30,286 bases of DNA, taken from positions 1 to 30,286 of IMG/VR virus record IMGVR_UViG_3300021087_000575. One strand, 5' to 3'. The notes beneath the pieces were generated by a model. It saw nothing but the letters and a program-made list of their open reading frames with translations, was not told the DNA's origin and made no database searches. Within the stretch, counting starts at the first letter, position 1. Each line of letters opens with the position of its first letter. Of the stretch, positions 12,679 to 22,517 are shown piece after piece. This stretch comes from a virus. The translations under genes and the position numbers were made by a program.

Positions 12679-13284
12679 CTATCCAATTTTATCTTCAGAA
12701 CCTATACCATCTGATAGGTTCAACTGTAACGCTTCACCACCTGTATCATACTCCCTTCCTTCCAAAAAGGCAAGGATATTCTGCGGAGAAGATACACCAT
12801 ATGGGTCGTCCAAAGCATTGTTTGTAAAACCTCGTTCAACGAACGTCTGTTCGATCTCAAAGTTCTTCACAATCATAGCATAACGCCATGAACGAATACC
12901 GAAGCCAAGGTTGTCCTTGTAAACATCCATTCCCATGGAAGAAGTAAACTTACCAGATCCATCTGGGATTACTTTGACGTGTTCAAGTCCTTGATCTTCT
13001 GCCCACTTATTCATCACAAAGGTATCATTTACTGATACACAGAAGATGTTTTCAACACCTGCCTTCTGAAACCGAGGATATAACTCCTCGAAATCAGGAA
13101 GCTGGAATGTAGAACAAGTGGGAGTGAAGGCTCCAGGAAGTGCGAAGATAACACACTTCTCTCGACCTACAATCTCATGGGATAATTGCATTTCCCATGC
13201 GAAAGGATTATCACCACCAACGGATTCATCTCGAACACGGACGTGGTGTACCACATTTGGAATGCGGTGTGGAAATAAAGGCAT
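12679..13284 (-). CDS. peroxiredoxin (Prx5-type)
   Basis: A 201-residue thiol peroxidase. The peroxidatic motif is PGAFTPTCS (P50 to S58, with T54 and C57), and the conserved Arg lies in GIRSWRYAMIV, the typical Prx5/AhpC-TSA pattern. C82 (NIFCVSV) is a candidate second cysteine. The enzyme reduces peroxides at the expense of thiols. AAGGAG precedes ATG 13284. It is inserted between the clamp (45) and clamp-loader (44) genes and shares their early promoter, so it would be made from the start of infection, perhaps to guard against oxidative damage (inference). The C-terminal extension after EGREYDTG is polar and of unknown role. Confidence 0.93.
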   Translation of the reverse strand: MPLFPHRIPNVVHHVRVRDESVGGDNPFAWEMQLSHEIVGREKCVIFALPGAFTPTCSTFQLPDFEELYPRFQKAGVENIFCVSVNDTFVMNKWAEDQGLEHVKVIPDGSGKFTSSMGMDVYKDNLGFGIRSWRYAMIVKNFEIEQTFVERGFTNNALDDPYGVSSPQNILAFLEGREYDTGGEALQLNLSDGIGSEDKIG

Positions 13285-13293
13285 GGTGTCTCC

Positions 13294-13950
13294 TTAAATT
13301 ACAGAGTTTGGCTCGAGAGCCAGCCAGTATTTCATAGTCCCTGATTCATTTTCAAGGAACATAAACTTCTTTTGTGACAAGACGATCTTATAAGAATCGG
13401 CAATCACTTTGAAGTTCTCAACAGCGAGACGGCAATCAAACTCTTTATCAGTCTCACCAATAACCTGACGGAAGGTGTTACTACGAGGAGTTGATGGGTC
13501 ACCGACAGACAATGTCACTTCACCGTCACGACCAACAACACTCATTACTGGTGCACTGATAACAGAAGCAGCACGAGTGATAGTCGTGATTTGCTCTTTA
13601 TCCATCGTGAATTCAAAGAAGTTATCGACATCAATAGTCTTGTCAGGGGCAGCAGTAATGATAGATGGGTCTGCGTAGAAATACTCAAACTCAGCACCAC
13701 CGCTGTTGATTTTTAAACTCCCTTCACCAAGATCAAGATCTGGAGTATCAGTGAATGTCAGCAAACCCAACAGGCTGTTGAGGTCATAGATAGCGAACTC
13801 TTTGTCAAAAGATTCCGTCACTGTGGCGCGGGAGAAAATGTTCTTGCCAGCACTGATAGTGGCAAGGGTGTTACCTTCACGAACTAGAATGTTCGAGTTA
13901 ATCGTTGCGAAGTTTTTTAAGACTTCAAGGGTTGGTTTAGAAATGTTCAT
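13294..13950 (-). CDS. 45: sliding clamp gp45
   Basis: A 218-residue DNA polymerase processivity clamp (T4 gp45 has 228). It begins MNISKPTLEVLKNFATINSNILV, like T4 gp45's TTALLKNFATINSGIM, with AIYDLNSLLGLL and a C-terminal YKIVLSQKKFMFLENESG. In T4 the clamp also activates late transcription by contacting gp55 and gp33. The true start is ATG 13950, which has AGAGGAA at the right distance; an upstream in-frame TTG adds eight basic residues and is unlikely. It is the first gene of the 45-Prx-44-TauD-62 operon, driven by the early promoter at 13986-14014. Confidence 0.96.
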   Translation of the reverse strand: MNISKPTLEVLKNFATINSNILVREGNTLATISAGKNIFSRATVTESFDKEFAIYDLNSLLGLLTFTDTPDLDLGEGSLKINSGGAEFEYFYADPSIITAAPDKTIDVDNFFEFTMDKEQITTITRAASVISAPVMSVVGRDGEVTLSVGDPSTPRSNTFRQVIGETDKEFDCRLAVENFKVIADSYKIVLSQKKFMFLENESGTMKYWLALEPNSVI

Positions 13951-13985
13951 AATATAGTTCCTCTTTCTTTTCAAGTAGTTTCATA

Positions 13986-14014
13986 ATAATACATCATTAG
14001 TGCGCAATAGTCAA
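13986..14014 (-). promoter_or_regulatory. early promoter P5 for the clamp operon
   Basis: Minus strand: -35 TTGACT (14009-14014, within GCTTGAC), 17-bp spacer, -10 TATTAT (13986-13991). The stop codon TGA of the upstream gene (14011-14013) is part of the -35 box. The leader to gene 45 is about 29 nt. Confidence 0.82.
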
Positions 14015-14334
14015 GCATCTTCTTCATATTTTTTCAACTCAAATGTCAAGTTCGGATGTATCTCGTAAAAATCTACATCTTCTTGATTGACAGTTTGAGA
14101 GAAAAGGTTGATAATTTCTTCGAGTTGATCTTCATCACTCAATTTAATGGTAGTTGTGAGAGAAAGACCATCGATTGATATATGTTGTGAAAACATCCCA
14201 GAGTATTCGTCAACTTTTATTTTTATTTCTTCATAAATTCTTATAGTATCAACATTGGGTTCAGATGGACCAAACATATCACCAAGAGAATTTCGAGTTA
14301 TTATATAATCTATGCAGTAATTTCTTGAAGACAT
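14011..14334 (-). CDS. 107-aa protein of unknown function
   Basis: A 107-residue acidic protein beginning MSSRNYCIDYIITRNS, with alternating strands (IKIKVDEYSGMF, SIDGLSLTTTIKL) and an acidic helix EDQLEEIINLFSQ. It lacks the DSL phosphopantetheine motif, so it is not an acyl-carrier protein even though it lies in the lipid-gene operon. It starts inside the end of the preceding gene (25-bp overlap) and is the last gene of that operon. Its stop codon forms part of the next early promoter. I do not recognise it. Confidence 0.7.
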   Translation of the reverse strand: MSSRNYCIDYIITRNSLGDMFGPSEPNVDTIRIYEEIKIKVDEYSGMFSQHISIDGLSLTTTIKLSDEDQLEEIINLFSQTVNQEDVDFYEIHPNLTFELKKYEEDA

Positions 14335-14897
14335 TTTAAAATTTCTTTCTCATAATCGTCATAGTTTAGATACAGTGCAGTCTGTTCAGTGTACTTATAA
14401 TTCACAGGTGATTCATATTCCACGAATGGCATATTAGGAAATACCGTGTAGTCATTCTTCTTTGGATCGACAGTTTTTGACAAACTCTTCAATCTCCACC
14501 TATTATGCTCGTTCACAAAAAACATCATAGCGCGGTAATCATCTTTTGCAAATCTTACAACGTGATGAACAAGTTTTTGAATCACAGTTATACTTTTCTT
14601 TATGCCTAGATCTGGTATCACGTATAGTCTGACAGGGCAGACGAATATATTCTTATCGCCTTCATATGGATAGAACCCCATACCGCCAAGATACTTATCG
14701 TCTTCTTCGTATGCGAAATATCCACCCTCATCATACGCCTTCTGTTTGAAGATCTGGTGCAGCAATGTTTCTGGGCGATCCCACCAATCTAAGAATTCTA
14801 TGTTTTCAGCGGTTGGGTCTGTATTAAACTCAGCGGTCTTACACATATCAAAGAGTTTATTATCAACAATGTGTTGACTATCTATCCTCACGAACAT
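14310..14897 (-). CDS. possible GNAT-like acyltransferase (uncertain)
   Basis: A 195-residue soluble protein. The central pattern GYFAYEEDDKYLGGMGFYP, then a strand VCPVRLYVIPD, then a helix SITVIQKLVHHVVRFAK and MMFFVNEHNRWRL resembles the beta4-beta5/alpha layout of GNAT N-acetyltransferases. The acetyl-CoA loop (R/QxxGxG/A) is not clear; only DLGIKKS sits at that position. It starts 20 bp inside the desaturase gene with AAGG upstream. Its position after ketosynthase and desaturase genes would suit an acyl transfer step, but that is context only. Confidence 0.7.
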   Translation of the reverse strand: MFVRIDSQHIVDNKLFDMCKTAEFNTDPTAENIEFLDWWDRPETLLHQIFKQKAYDEGGYFAYEEDDKYLGGMGFYPYEGDKNIFVCPVRLYVIPDLGIKKSITVIQKLVHHVVRFAKDDYRAMMFFVNEHNRWRLKSLSKTVDPKKNDYTVFPNMPFVEYESPVNYKYTEQTALYLNYDDYEKEILKCLQEITA

Positions 14898-15597
14898 TCA
14901 GAAACCTTATAAAAAATTGGTATGGCGCGTCGATCAAACCGAACCTTGGGATTCCTGGATTCTTATGATGGAACTGATGGTACAACTCACCGCTATATAA
15001 TATTGAGAGGAGAGCATTGTTGACTGGTTTTTTATTTGGATGGCCAAGAAGATTCAAGGTGACTTGGAAAATATATGCAACACCAATCGTTGCCGCCCAG
15101 AAACCACCCAGACCAGACGCGATCATTAAACCCCCAGAGAGGATTGCAATTTCCCAATACCATCTTGCCTGAAATCCATATAGTCTATCTCTTATCATCC
15201 ATCTCGGTATTGATGTTACAGATGGTACACCATTGAATACCATAAAATTATCGAAAACACTATGTACGTTTCCATGTGGATCCTTTTCCGTGTCTGTAAA
15301 TCTATGATGGTTTCTATGTACGGATGCCCATCCCATACTCGGTGTCAATACGAATGCGTTACATAAGAACAGACTGACAATCTCTACAAACCTCGATGGT
15401 TGCCAAGACTTATGAGAACAGTATCGATGTTGAAACCCAGAAATAAGATATCCAACAAGAAGATTACTCGCGACCAACCAAACCAACAACTCAAAGATAG
15501 GCAATGTCGGTATCCAAAAGACTGAATATAATGTGCACATAACGTAGAACGCTGTGTGCATATATCCTGTCTTGTTACCGATTAGGGTTATTAGCAT
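14878..15597 (-). CDS. membrane fatty-acid desaturase (acyl-CoA/acyl-lipid type)
   Basis: A 239-residue integral membrane di-iron enzyme with all three histidine boxes: HRYCSH (57-62, HX4H), HRNHH (94-98, HXXHH) and HQFHH (207-211, HXXHH). Hydrophobic segments lie around 15-55, 70-88 and 150-182. The layout is that of delta-9/stearoyl-type desaturases, which insert a double bond into an acyl chain using O2 and an electron donor. It is shorter than most bacterial homologues (about 300 or more residues) but has no missing box. ATG 15597 overlaps the ketosynthase stop (TAATG). Desaturase genes are rare in phages; partner and substrate are unknown. Confidence 0.93.
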   Translation of the reverse strand: MLITLIGNKTGYMHTAFYVMCTLYSVFWIPTLPIFELLVWLVASNLLVGYLISGFQHRYCSHKSWQPSRFVEIVSLFLCNAFVLTPSMGWASVHRNHHRFTDTEKDPHGNVHSVFDNFMVFNGVPSVTSIPRWMIRDRLYGFQARWYWEIAILSGGLMIASGLGGFWAATIGVAYIFQVTLNLLGHPNKKPVNNALLSILYSGELYHQFHHKNPGIPRFGLIDAPYQFFIRFLNVREDR

Positions 15598-16760
15598 TAT
15601 ACTTCCAGAACTAATGAGGACGATTTACCACCAAAGGCAAACGAATTCTTCACTGCAATTTTTTTAGTTAGTTTCTGTTTGTATTTATACACATATTCCA
15701 AATCACAATCATCGATGTTGAAATTTTTTGGTATGACGCCATTACACAAACACATCACACTATAGATTGTCTCGTTGATTCCACTCGCTGCAAGAGAGTG
15801 ACCGATCTTAGACTTAAAACTCAACACAGGAGTTTCAGGAATGACTGCTTGTATTGCTGCATACTCTAGGTCATCGCCAATTGGTGTTGAAGTGCCATGT
15901 GCGTTTACGAATGCAACATCATCAAGATCAATACCATTTGTAACAGCAGACATCGATGCTTTCGCGCCAGTCATACTTAAATCAGGAGAGGTGGGGCTAC
16001 CGAGCGCACCATCTGTGTGGTGTGAGATGTTGTTTATGTAAGCGATTATTCCAGCACCACGTGCCTTTGCGTCAGACTCTTTTTCTAGGACGAGACAACC
16101 AGCACCCTCACCCATAATGAATCCATCTCGGTTACTATCAAAGGGACTCGATTTTGTACCGAGAGCACCCAATTGATTGAAGAGATACATATCATCGTCT
16201 ACAGCAGGAGTATCTGTGCCGCCAACAATTACATACTTGTGAGTCTTTAGAAGGTGTGTTGCATAGTCGATCGAATACAACCCTGTTGCGCATGCTGCAT
16301 CCATACTAACACAAGCACCGCGATAGTCAAAGGTTTGACTGATCAGTCCAGCTGTAAAATCATTTAGATATTGGACAGCAGTTCTTGGTGACAGACGTTT
16401 ACCATCACGCATCTTGTCAATGAATGGTCCAGCCTCAGTTTGTGGTTTGGCTGCAACCGAACTGAATACAACAGCTACATCGGTGCTGTCCATACCTGCA
16501 GTCGCCTGTTGCACAACGTGGAGTGCATTCTTAGAAGCCACAGTAAGAGAATTGTGCATCGGTTTGCGGATGCCTTCTGGAATATTGTATTCGGGAACAG
16601 AAGTCTTAAAACACTTCAACCCTTTGAGAGATTCAATCTCTGTCTCAAACTCTACAGGATCGATATATTCTTCACTCAACATATTTTCGAAACATTCCAT
16701 CGGACTTGTTCCGAGGTTGTCAACGATTCCCACACCTGTTATTACAATTCTATCATTCAT
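15597..16760 (-). CDS. beta-ketoacyl-ACP synthase (FabF/KAS II-like)
   Basis: A 387-residue thiolase-fold condensing enzyme with an intact active site: nucleophile C157 in DAACATG, H288 in NAHGTSTPIGD, and K316 and H321 in SFKSKIGHSLAASG. The N-terminus MNDRIVITGVG is the usual ketosynthase start, and NRDGFIMGEGAG and NSFAFGGKSS are further family landmarks. It should condense malonyl-ACP with an acyl chain, extending fatty acids or a polyketide-like product using host ACP, as no ACP gene is seen here. ATG 16760 is chosen for GGAA upstream; an alternative ATG lies at 16766. It overlaps the glycosyltransferase gene by 8 bp. Confidence 0.95.
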   Translation of the reverse strand: MNDRIVITGVGIVDNLGTSPMECFENMLSEEYIDPVEFETEIESLKGLKCFKTSVPEYNIPEGIRKPMHNSLTVASKNALHVVQQATAGMDSTDVAVVFSSVAAKPQTEAGPFIDKMRDGKRLSPRTAVQYLNDFTAGLISQTFDYRGACVSMDAACATGLYSIDYATHLLKTHKYVIVGGTDTPAVDDDMYLFNQLGALGTKSSPFDSNRDGFIMGEGAGCLVLEKESDAKARGAGIIAYINNISHHTDGALGSPTSPDLSMTGAKASMSAVTNGIDLDDVAFVNAHGTSTPIGDDLEYAAIQAVIPETPVLSFKSKIGHSLAASGINETIYSVMCLCNGVIPKNFNIDDCDLEYVYKYKQKLTKKIAVKNSFAFGGKSSSLVLEV

Positions 16761-17523
16761 TTCCATACTCAATCATCATTGTCTTGATGTTATCTAACAT
16801 TTTATTGTTTTTGATCGACTCCATAACCTGACCATCATCAGAGAAGTCATACATATACAGGAAATCCTCATCAGTCGAGGAGATCTCATGCACCTTCAGT
16901 AACTTTTTAACTTGAAGGAAATGTAAAAGATCCTCGGCAATGTCGAGGCTCTCATTGAATTTATAATTTGCCGCAGCACGGCTGTATAGAAGATACCGAT
17001 TAAATGGCTCTCCATTGAAAGTCTGAGAACGAATAAACTCTTTGTATTTGAAGTAATAGTCTAGATCTTCCTTTTCCCAAGTCAGACCGTGGCGCATAAT
17101 CTTGGGCAGTGTTTCAATATCGCTCAATGTGATCTTCTTACCGCTAGAGGATATTGCATATCCGTTAGTCAGGCATGCAACATCAAACTCGTTGTTTTCG
17201 ATCTCCTCATGTAATCGAGCAATACAAGTTTCAGAAATGTAATCATCTCCATCGATCTGAAGGAGATAATCAGCGTCAGTAGCGAGGAAGTATCTCAGGA
17301 CAGAGTTCTTTCCCATTCCTGGAGTCCCGTTCGACTTTGTTTTTGTCACAGGGAATCTATGATCAAAAGAAATTTGGGTCGCCAGAGAAGAGTAGTCGGC
17401 ATCAGTTGTATTAATAACGACGATCCGCTCATGAGGAGAGAGGTTTGAGTTCACGGATTCCAAACACCGCTTCAACTTCTCTGGCTTCCCATTGGTCAGG
17501 ATAGCGACCAAAACTTTAGCCAT
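16753..17523 (-). CDS. GT2-family glycosyltransferase
   Basis: A 256-residue GT-A fold enzyme: MAKVLVAILTNGKPEKLKRCLES is the nucleotide-binding start, and LLQIDGDDYI (DGDD at 91-94) is the metal-binding DXD region. GMGKNSVLRYFL lies between them. It has no membrane segment, so it is probably cytoplasmic, moving a sugar from an NDP-sugar to an unknown acceptor. ATG 17523 is chosen over upstream in-frame codons because AAGGAAC precedes it. The start overlaps the DUF3310-like stop by 8 bp. It is co-transcribed with the ketosynthase and desaturase genes, which hints at a glycolipid or modified-envelope product; DNA or virion glycosylation is an alternative. Confidence 0.88.
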   Translation of the reverse strand: MAKVLVAILTNGKPEKLKRCLESVNSNLSPHERIVVINTTDADYSSLATQISFDHRFPVTKTKSNGTPGMGKNSVLRYFLATDADYLLQIDGDDYISETCIARLHEEIENNEFDVACLTNGYAISSSGKKITLSDIETLPKIMRHGLTWEKEDLDYYFKYKEFIRSQTFNGEPFNRYLLYSRAAANYKFNESLDIAEDLLHFLQVKKLLKVHEISSTDEDFLYMYDFSDDGQVMESIKNNKMLDNIKTMMIEYGNE

Positions 17524-17830
17524 CTGAATGTTCCTTGTCGTGAACATACAGAGCAATTAAACCATAATGCAAGACTTTCAGTAAGTCTTTGCGATTGTAT
17601 CCATCTTTGTTTCCATAGCGTTGAGCATACTTCATAATGTTGCCGATGGTGAAACCCTCACCATGACCGCCATCAATAATAAACTCAGTGGCTTGAAATT
17701 TGTTTTGCGAATAATGCTCGCCATACGTGGCATCAACATACTTCTGAAGGTCAGCCATCAACTGACCCTCATTGTATTTGTAATCAATCAATCCATATTC
17801 CTCAGCAGTTATTTCCATAGACTCGGACAT
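17516..17830 (-). CDS. DUF3310-like protein
   Basis: A 104-residue protein whose second half fits the DUF3310 pattern found in many phages: ATEFIIDGGHGEGFTIGNIMKYAQRYGNK, with conserved E/H and KYxxRxxxK, followed by a helix NRKDLLKVLHYGLIALYV. Family members are phage proteins of unknown biochemical role, sometimes labelled nucleotide-kinase-like. ATG 17830 has GGAAAG upstream and lies 6 nt after the cobS stop, so it is the second gene of that operon. Its last bases contain the start of the glycosyltransferase. Confidence 0.82.
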   Translation of the reverse strand: MSESMEITAEEYGLIDYKYNEGQLMADLQKYVDATYGEHYSQNKFQATEFIIDGGHGEGFTIGNIMKYAQRYGNKDGYNRKDLLKVLHYGLIALYVHDKEHSDG

Positions 17831-17836
17831 CACTTT

Positions 17837-18991
17837 CTACTTTCCAAATAATTCATCTAATTCATCTTGAGACGCAACAACAGTCTCATCATCAGTCAGC
17901 GCACCAGCATCGACCTTGGTATATAGGTCAATGAATGCCGCACGAGTATCTTCATCGAAGCGATTCACGCACATCTCGATCGCTTTAAGGCGGTCATCGA
18001 ACATAGCGTAGGCATTGACGATGTGCTCAATACGACGAGTTGATACGAGGTCATCGATCGCGCCTTCGTTGAAGGTCTTGCGGATAACGTCAGCCCAGCG
18101 AACCAGCTTCTCAGCGAAGTCCTCATCGACCTTACCGACACGCTGCATCTTGCCAAGCACGATACGCTTCTCTTGTGATTCAGTAGGAAACTGTTGCTCA
18201 ATAGTGATAGCAAAACGCTCAAGGAATGCCTCATCAAGAATCTGGGCAGAGATAAACTTGCCATCATCAGAGCCACGACCCTTGGTGTTAGCAGTAGCGA
18301 CAACAGTGAAGCCAGCAGAAGGTGCGACCATCTCACCAGTCTTCTTGTTGAAGTATGGCTTACCCTCAAGGATAGCCTGCAGACACATCAGCTTGTTAGA
18401 GCCACGATCCAGTTCGTCTAGAATCAGAACCGAGCCACGCTTCATGGCGGTCAAAACTGGACCTTCACGATACACGACATTGCCATCAACCAGCGTGTTA
18501 CCACCGATCAAATCATCCTCGTCAGTCTCAACAGAGATATTGACGCGGATCGCTTCACGCTTTAGTTTAGCGCAAATTTGCTCGATCATCGTGGTCTTAC
18601 CATTACCTGATAGACCAGAGATGAAGGTAGGATAGAACAGACCAGACTTGATAATCTTGGTCAGGTCTTTGTGGAAGCCGAACGCCACATAGGTGGGGTC
18701 GACCACGGGGACGAGGTTATCAACCTCAACTGCAAGTTTGGCTTGCGTCACGACTTTTGCATCCTGTACTGGGGCAGGAGCGGTCACAGGAGCATTATTG
18801 CTCACAACAACCTTCAACCCTGCTGCATCTACAGCGTATTTATTGTATCCAACTTTGTTCTCGCGAAAGAACCAGTGGGGGTATGATATGCCGAGATCCT
18901 CAACGATCTGGGCAACTTCTGGACGACTGAATGTCTCTTGACTCTTGGCATTCAGGGCTTCAAATAGCTTCTCACGATTCAACTTACTCAT
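17837..18991 (-). CDS. cobS: CobS-like / MoxR-type AAA+ ATPase
   Basis: A 384-residue AAA+ protein. The N-terminal 60 residues form a small domain (EKLFEALNAKSQETFSRPEVAQIVEDLG), followed by an Ala/Pro-rich linker. The core has Walker A GLSGNGKT (126-133), Walker B LILDELDRG (DELDR 192-196), sensor VVATANTKGRG and the DEAFLERF box. Phage cobS genes are named after the cobaltochelatase subunit but belong to the MoxR ATPases, which usually work with a VWA protein. The gene just upstream encodes such a VWA protein. ATG 18991 is chosen for GAGAGGAT at 7 nt. It heads the operon through the lipid genes, from the early promoter at 19024-19052. Confidence 0.93.
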   Translation of the reverse strand: MSKLNREKLFEALNAKSQETFSRPEVAQIVEDLGISYPHWFFRENKVGYNKYAVDAAGLKVVVSNNAPVTAPAPVQDAKVVTQAKLAVEVDNLVPVVDPTYVAFGFHKDLTKIIKSGLFYPTFISGLSGNGKTTMIEQICAKLKREAIRVNISVETDEDDLIGGNTLVDGNVVYREGPVLTAMKRGSVLILDELDRGSNKLMCLQAILEGKPYFNKKTGEMVAPSAGFTVVATANTKGRGSDDGKFISAQILDEAFLERFAITIEQQFPTESQEKRIVLGKMQRVGKVDEDFAEKLVRWADVIRKTFNEGAIDDLVSTRRIEHIVNAYAMFDDRLKAIEMCVNRFDEDTRAAFIDLYTKVDAGALTDDETVVASQDELDELFGK

Positions 18992-19023
18992 AACATAATC
19001 CTCTCTCATCAAGTTATATACAT

Positions 19024-19052
19024 ATTATCGCTCATTCGAGCACAAAAGTCAA
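19024..19052 (-). promoter_or_regulatory. early promoter P6 for cobS and the lipid operon
   Basis: Minus strand: -35 TTGACT (19047-19052, within GCTTGAC), 17-bp spacer, -10 GATAAT (19024-19029). The TGA stop of the upstream VWA gene lies within the -35. The spacer contains a short inverted repeat (GCTC-ATTC-GAGC, 19030-19041) that could be an operator. Confidence 0.85.
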
Positions 19053-21810: not shown

Positions 21811-22005
21811 TCAGGTGTTGTCGCCATCTGAATATTTCACTTTACTTTTATCATACAACTTGATGTGCTTACGGAGACGTTTGTTATATCCACGTTTGAT
21901 TTTCTTCGCCACACCTGATCTTGAGAGGTAGCAATAGAACCGTTTCGCGTCAGTCAGAGCGTCATACTCTGCACCGCCTTTCATTTTTATTCTTAACTTC
22001 TTCAT
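21811..22005 (-). CDS. 64-aa basic conserved phage protein
   Basis: This 64-residue protein is strongly basic (KKLRIKMKGG, KKIKRGYNKRLRKHIK) and contains the phrase GGAEYDALTDAKRFY, which I recall from small conserved proteins of T4-like marine phages. Nucleic-acid binding is likely from charge only. ATG 22005 overlaps the deformylase stop (ATGA). It closes the early 47-46-deformylase operon, and a late promoter follows its stop immediately. Confidence 0.78.
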   Translation of the reverse strand: MKKLRIKMKGGAEYDALTDAKRFYCYLSRSGVAKKIKRGYNKRLRKHIKLYDKSKVKYSDGDNT

Positions 22006-22517
22006 ACAAGTGACCTTGCCTTTTTCCGAATGTTCTTAACTGTCTTCTTCTTGATTGATTTTATCGCACGATCAAGTTTCAGCTTCGAAGCACGCTGAGT
22101 AAAATTCTGTCCAATCATATGGTCGTATTCGTGTAGGACAACTCTTGCCGCGAGATCTACAAATTCCTCAACGACATCTTCACCTTCTGTATTCTGATAC
22201 TTCAATGTAACTCGAGTCGGACGACGAATCATAAGGAATACTTCTGGTAATGATAAACAACCTTCCTTCACTAAATCAGTCTCCTCACCAACACCCATAA
22301 TAACTGGGTTGATGATGTATCTTGTAATGTCCTTGCCATCACCAAACACAAATACTTTCGCGTCTAGACCAACTTGGTTTGCTGAAAGACCAATGCCTCC
22401 CAATTCCTGTTGCTTCTTAAACAACGCATCACAAAACTCTTTAGCATCATGCTCTTCAAAGTCAAACTCTTTTGGCTCGCGCTTCAAGAGTTCATTACCA
22501 AAATCTATTAATTCCAT
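22002..22517 (-). CDS. def: peptide deformylase
   Basis: A 171-residue metalloenzyme that removes the formyl group from nascent proteins. All three motifs are intact: GIGLSANQ (41-48), EGCLSLP (85-91, metal ligand C87) and HEYDH (129-133, catalytic E130). It has a basic C-terminal tail (KSIKKKTVKNIRKKAR), so it is somewhat longer than minimal phage deformylases. ATG 22517 overlaps the gene 46 stop (TAATG). Deformylases are well known in marine phages, where they are thought to support turnover of host or phage proteins made during infection. Confidence 0.96.
   Translation of the reverse strand: MELIDFGNELLKREPKEFDFEEHDAKEFCDALFKKQQELGGIGLSANQVGLDAKVFVFGDGKDITRYIINPVIMGVGEETDLVKEGCLSLPEVFLMIRRPTRVTLKYQNTEGEDVVEEFVDLAARVVLHEYDHMIGQNFTQRASKLKLDRAIKSIKKKTVKNIRKKARSLV

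Follow-up and report, generated by a model that had tools for sequence, protein, structure and literature searches.

A putative acyl-chain-remodelling gene pair, ketosynthase and desaturase, in T4-like aquatic phages

We analysed a stretch of viral DNA of 30,286 nucleotides (positions 1 to 30,286 of the IMG/VR record IMGVR_UViG_3300021087_000575; hereafter the window) and in particular a small gene cassette with a link to fatty-acid metabolism. The window is a portion of the genome of a T4-like phage and contains, on the minus strand, homologues of gp41, UvsX, gp43, gp44, gp45, gp46 and gp47. The slot between cobS and the sliding-clamp gene gp45 holds, in the order of transcription, genes for: a DUF3310 protein, a GT2-family glycosyltransferase (with a DGDD motif in its translation), a beta-ketoacyl-ACP synthase (KAS; ACP, acyl carrier protein), a membrane fatty-acid desaturase, a 195-aa protein with a GNAT fold and a 107-aa open reading frame (ORF), all with overlapping ends (Table 1). 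The run of overlapping glycosyltransferase, KAS, desaturase and possible GNAT genes in a T4-like replication region had been recognised in an initial annotation, made from the sequence alone, and is borne out by the gene calls, the Pfam and phrog matches and the predicted structures. The KAS stop and the desaturase start overlap in TAATG, as described there; the GT2 and KAS genes overlap by 8 nt (ATGAATGA), the desaturase and GNAT genes by 20 nt, and the GNAT gene and the 107-aa ORF by 25 nt. Three promoter-like sites on the minus strand of the region score 10/12 or more, one directly ahead of the peptidase gene, one ahead of cobS and one ahead of gp45, with none between cobS and gp45; the cassette is therefore probably read from the site upstream of cobS, together with cobS itself, in agreement with its earlier placement behind a cobS promoter, a consensus match being no proof.

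The KAS carries the N- and C-terminal Pfam domains of its family and a FabF fold: the best PDB match of its AlphaFold model (pLDDT 87.8) is Escherichia coli FabF (KAS II, 1kas; template-modelling score 0.89), with which it shares the Cys-His-His triad, Lys335, Phe400 and Asp265. The catalytic residues C157/H288/K316/H321, earlier reported as intact, are indeed so when numbered from the ATG (C161/H292/K320/H325 from the upstream TTG) and are invariant in 18 diverse relatives; in FabF numbering, C163, H303, K335, H340, Phe400 and Asp265 are invariant in 35/35 phage representatives. The acyl pocket and the gate of these representatives differ from those of bacterial FabF: the pocket segment GSGIGG is lost, with short deletions near it; residue 107, a Gly in 31/31 bacterial sequences, is Leu, Val or another residue; Met/Ala337 is Lys in 33 of the 35 (Lys or Gln overall); Thr/His403 has become Lys or Arg; and Asn404 has become Cys or Ser in 31 of the 35 (Cys, Ser or Asn overall). 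In FabF, Asn404 and Asp265 couple two gating loops, the gate motif consisting of GFGG and Asn404 with Asp265 (PMC7138838). As Asn404 is replaced, the gate of the phage KAS appears to have been rebuilt, which may have altered its chain specificity. The term FabF-like, used in the initial annotation, thus fits the fold and the catalytic residues and understates the rest: the combination of gate Asn404 and GSGIGG pocket that marks bacterial FabF is missing, although Phe400 and Asp265 are kept, and the enzyme belongs to a phage-specific clade rather than being a captured host FabF.

Relatives of the KAS were sought in IMG/VR with its sequence, which yielded 63 viral loci, and then with its alignment, which yielded 153 confirmed stretches; these relatives are 34-100% identical and syntenic. 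Among 84,980 species genomes the best clearly bacterial relatives are about 30-36% identical; no close bacterial relative was present in 588 candidate stretches, and no KAS more than 40% identical over the aligned part in 142 alphaproteobacterial genomes. There is one exception, a phage-clade KAS that is 38-41% identical and lies on a short (6.5 kb) phage-like contig binned in a Flavobacteriales metagenome-assembled genome (L106); that genome has a more ordinary KAS elsewhere, and the contig is probably phage sequence in a bacterial bin. In the maximum-likelihood tree, from which FabB and one long branch of unsure placement (L232) were left out, every phage KAS falls on one side of a 100/100 branch, recovered in 100% of 200 bootstrap trees, and outside the bacterial FabF clade. 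Judged from the tree and these searches, the KAS is a phage-evolved clade and not a recent capture from a host. Another 29 matches, in a 'phages' collection, were rejected as relatives, because their identity is 25-35% and most of them lie on contigs that are unannotated or look bacterial, unlike the syntenic IMG/VR relatives.

The desaturase is of the stearoyl-CoA desaturase type: its PDB profile matches are the acyl-CoA desaturases 4zyo and 4ymk (E 5e-11), than which it is shorter. It had been described as a three-His-box enzyme, and the three boxes are there, together with an additional Asn-x3-His as in SCD1; ten positions (nine His and Asn182) fit the dimetal ligand pattern of stearoyl-CoA desaturases and are invariant in 11 relatives, their ligand roles being presumed by analogy with the SCD1 structures. 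The only clear phage match was to Pelagibacter phage Mosig (28%), and no cyanophage record matched even at E≤10. The Mosig gene (L102:15007-15657) has genes for an N-acetyltransferase, for dioxygenases and for sugar modification in its surroundings.

KAS and desaturase genes were found side by side in at least 16 contigs. This is the case in the cobS-gp45 slot of the window's lineage (lineage A), in a second T4-like lineage (lineage B; L004-L013, L069), where the pair lies downstream of gp41 and DUF3310 without GT2 or GNAT genes, and also in L014/L195 and L232; in several other records the two genes co-occur without being adjacent. Two different phage lineages thus have the DUF3310 gene beside the KAS locus. 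The pairwise identities of KAS and desaturase are strongly correlated (r=0.92, 136 pairs), those of KAS and GNAT somewhat less so (0.87), and those with GT2 (0.50), CobS (0.38) and gp45 (0.26) weakly; the pairs are non-independent and the r values descriptive. The ratio of non-synonymous to synonymous substitution rates (dN/dS) is 0.06-0.12 for the KAS and 0.08-0.20 for the desaturase. These figures point to joint inheritance under purifying selection, a combination that looks new, and on gene order and identity the core of the cassette is the KAS-desaturase pair. The pair is therefore a conserved module, with the same order in the same slot, and not a chance insertion absent from all relatives. 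Because the window KAS is 71-75% identical to that of lineage B and gp43 only 42-43%, the pair has passed between phage lineages.

Within lineage A the slot comes in three classes: I (the window, L002, L003, L010), II (L022, L024, L243) and III (L244-L246), a division that rests on about ten contigs. Between classes the KAS is 40-63% identical, the desaturase 28-45% and the GNAT-fold protein 35-51%, against 84-100% for gp45 and 91-99% for gp44. Aligned with L243, the window DNA is about 95-100% identical through gp45, the peroxiredoxin gene and gp44, and about 55% through KAS, desaturase, GNAT and 107-aa ORF, with a base-sharp switch in the last codons of the 107-aa ORF, at its stop codon, where the promoter-like site of gp45 has its first hexamer. 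This junction is seen on one contig, which is possibly chimeric; in the comparison with L024 (a contig of 24.7 kb) the same block appears again, independently, and is bounded near 16,750 and 14,030. In lineage B, the KAS alone has diverged between L018 and L020 (57%), their upstream proteins being 94-99% identical (DUF3310 87%). Near-identical phages thus swap KAS, desaturase, GNAT and 107-aa ORF as one block of deeply diverged alleles, which looks new as well. The GT2 gene seems to be only partly exchanged with this block: its N-terminal part is 0.87-0.90 identical in DNA between the window and L024, where the KAS is at background, and the GT2 of class III is 39-59% identical to that of the other classes. 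Over the whole slot, the proteins of the window recur without any difference in an independent contig (L001). The 107-aa ORF at the distal end evolves fast (dN/dS 0.46-0.67) and is yet kept in place in several relatives.

The GNAT assignment, put forward before as a possibility, holds for the fold, which was recognised from structure alone: the model (pLDDT 75, pTM 0.73, a moderate confidence) gave 257 PDB matches at E≤0.001 with Foldseek (top E 7e-8), and the 50 listed are GNAT-type acetyltransferases. It has no Pfam match, the canonical acetyl-CoA loop Q/RxxGxG/A is missing from six homologues, and no match was found in phage records. Acyl-ACP-using GNAT relatives such as LuxI and FeeM are also known to lack the usual loop motif.

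Table 1. Coordinates of the cassette and flanking features in the window
Feature	Position	Strand	Evidence
Phage-clade beta-ketoacyl-ACP synthase (KAS)	15597..16772 (upstream TTG), ATG start probably 16760	-	PF00109 E 9e-26, PF02801 E 1.5e-21
Membrane fatty-acid desaturase, stearoyl-CoA desaturase type, 239 aa	14878..15597	-	PF00487 E 3e-8, 34 bits vs curated cut-off 29.7
195-aa GNAT-fold protein	14310..14897	-	predicted structure; no Pfam match
107-aa ORF, distal end of exchanged block	14011..14334	-	32-35% identity between close phages
GT2-family glycosyltransferase, syntenic neighbour	16753..17556 (ATG at 17523)	-	PF00535 E 6e-9
DUF3310 protein	17516..17833	-	PF11753, phrog_480
CobS-like AAA ATPase, upstream flank of slot	17837..19012	-	phrog_249
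gp45 sliding clamp, downstream flank of slot	13294..13974	-	phrog_223
Promoter-like site upstream of gp45, TTGACT-17-TATTAT	13986..14014	-	consensus match
Promoter-like site upstream of cobS, TTGACT-17-GATAAT	19024..19052	-	consensus match only

An ACP gene (PF00550) was found neither in the window nor in 30 related records, in line with the earlier suggestion that host ACP is used; in the related phages FabZ and PlsC-type acyltransferases were not found either, and two matches to a FabG-type reductase were both below the cut-off. The KAS would therefore have to work inside the type II fatty-acid synthesis of the host. We lean towards reading the cassette as a unit of two enzymes with which T4-like phages of aquatic habitats remodel acyl chains, and in which a KAS and a stearoyl-CoA-type desaturase rely on host ACP and the alleles are swapped by recombination. 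The KAS would take acyl groups from host ACP and condense them with malonyl-ACP, host FabG, FabZ and FabI would complete each round of extension, and the desaturase would add a double bond to the acyl chain, so that the membrane or envelope lipids made during infection would differ in length and unsaturation. In the window's lineage the GNAT-fold protein that travels with the pair may place an acyl or acetyl group on a product. The block of KAS, desaturase and GNAT would be exchanged as alternative allele classes via recombination in the conserved flanks, probably because the classes have different chain or substrate specificities that suit different hosts or conditions; the exchange itself suggests that enzyme specificity is of importance, perhaps in matching the host or in competition among phages. 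Desaturases are present in other KAS phages as well, which supports this reading. Several observations weigh against it: in some phages, including one with a contig of 119 kb, the KAS is found without a detectable desaturase; with GSGIGG and Asn404 lost, the substrate may be no ordinary acyl-ACP; and swaps between classes that are only about 29-60% identical exceed what simple control of fluidity would seem to need.

The allele swapping would be explained if the phages made a dedicated product, for instance a small molecule acylated on N or O or a modified envelope lipid, that acts between phages (superinfection exclusion, receptor masking); its acyl group would be tailored by the KAS and the desaturase and attached by the GNAT-fold enzyme. 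The GNAT protein co-varies with the KAS, is exchanged in the same block and lacks the usual acetyl-CoA loop motif, and alternative classes occur in phages whose flanks are about 99-100% identical; the GNAT gene is, however, missing from the KAS-desaturase loci of other lineages, and the best fold matches among the 50 shown are ordinary small-molecule or protein acetyltransferases and not LuxI or FeeM, so that we consider this explanation rather unlikely. Tentatively, and at a level that we would still call doubtful, the elements can be combined in a wider proposal: the phage-specific ketosynthase with its rebuilt gate, the desaturase and the GNAT-fold enzyme would make a lipid or acyl product foreign to the host, and the cassette would be an exchangeable specificity locus, its alleles swapped as the product mediates competition or host matching.

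The initial annotation had suggested all four genes as one possible pathway, and an envelope glycolipid pathway that includes the GT2 enzyme would account for the adjacent and overlapping GT2 gene in lineage-A contigs with an intact slot and for the diverged GT2 of the class III cassettes. It is quite improbable, as the GT2 tracks the KAS weakly, far below desaturase and GNAT, stays similar in its N-terminal part between the window and L024 where the KAS does not, and is missing beside the pair in other lineages, and as glycosyltransferases are a common cargo in such phages, according to the available text of a survey of pelagimyophages (PMC7029224). What stands of the four-gene proposal is the KAS-desaturase core; lineage B does without GT2 and GNAT, and KAS occurs elsewhere without desaturase. 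The KAS-only phages, together with the altered pocket and gate, would also fit a KAS that manipulates host fatty-acid synthesis, for example by decarboxylating malonyl-ACP or diverting acyl-ACP, without productive elongation, next to a desaturase that is an independent fluidity gene; this is improbable, since no catalytic residue has been lost, Phe400 and Asp265 included, and the two genes, where both occur, are strongly co-inherited under purifying selection. It is hardly credible that the cassette has no role, having been picked up by accident from a host in recent times or arisen as a chimera of the assembly. Slots between core genes are known to take up variable cargo: in Pelagibacter phage HTVC008M the cobS-gp45 slot (L247:41228-43359) holds genes for ribosomal protein S21, Hsp20 and a 2-oxoglutarate oxygenase, so that it looks like a general cargo site, and the L243 junction occurs in one contig only. 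The identical proteins of the independent contig L001, the three classes of content that fill the same slot of at least 10 contigs, dN/dS values far below 1 and a phage-only clade without close bacterial relatives in the genomes searched all argue against this explanation.

Parts of this gene set are known. According to the initial annotation, no described pathway with this set was known; freshwater pelagimyophages (group PMP-D, Zaragoza-Solas et al. 2020), however, carry 'fabF, stearoyl-CoA desaturase', given in one sentence on gene content, without analysis, in the available text of that report (PMC7029224). Compared by description only, these are, like the window, T4-like aquatic phages with a KAS and a desaturase of this type; adjacency, phylogeny, active sites and allele exchange are not treated in the same text, unlike here. 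In virome surveys, fabF and desC figure as auxiliary genes (PMC10653327), and phage desaturases have been described as membrane-lipid genes (PMC7300359, PMC7678222). A predicted prophage of Rhodobacteraceae has an acpP-fabF-fabG cluster (PMC8224337), that is, a FabF in bacterial fab order with ACP and FabG, whereas the window has neither of the latter and a divergent KAS. The desaturase of the window is phage-borne like the lipid desaturases of cyanophages, with which it has no detectable sequence kinship and for which the portions of the literature available to us mention no KAS partner. Those cyanophage enzymes were reportedly proposed by Roitman et al. 2018, as cited in PMC8224337 and PMC7300359, to alter host membrane lipids. 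In the literature searched, which is incomplete, we found no account of a KAS clade of phages or of its changed gate, and none of the co-inheritance or of the swapping of alleles; the clade with its altered gate and pocket, the KAS-desaturase co-inheritance and the three-class block exchange therefore look new, phage desaturases and the combination of fabF and desaturase in gene content being already known.

Phage lipid genes have so far appeared chiefly in lists, as individual auxiliary genes acquired from hosts. Here a KAS clade with its own active-site signature apparently evolved within phages; it is co-inherited with a desaturase across T4-like lineages and swapped, in a block of alleles, between phages that are otherwise near-identical. 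This speaks for lipid remodelling being a central and diversifying function of infection. The three allele classes provide ready natural variants, with the same phage backbone and different enzymes.

An assignment to a SAR11 host was set aside: the core proteins of the window are 29-65% identical to those of HTVC008M, and its gp43 is nearer to cyanophages (49.6%) than to HTVC008M (43.6%). The window also holds probable genes for ribosomal protein S21 and peptide deformylase (21811-22517), which the available text on pelagimyophages gives as core to that group (PMC7029224); the other core genes are too distant for such an assignment. A peroxiredoxin gene (12679-13284) lies between gp45 and gp44 in the window's lineage, and a related gene of HTVC008M (50% identity) is found far off, at the genome end. 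In one class I relative a 266-aa protein (L002:7266-8066), with a P-loop and a GRFQPWHHGHQ motif (HxGH nucleotidyltransferase-like), is inserted between GT2 and KAS.

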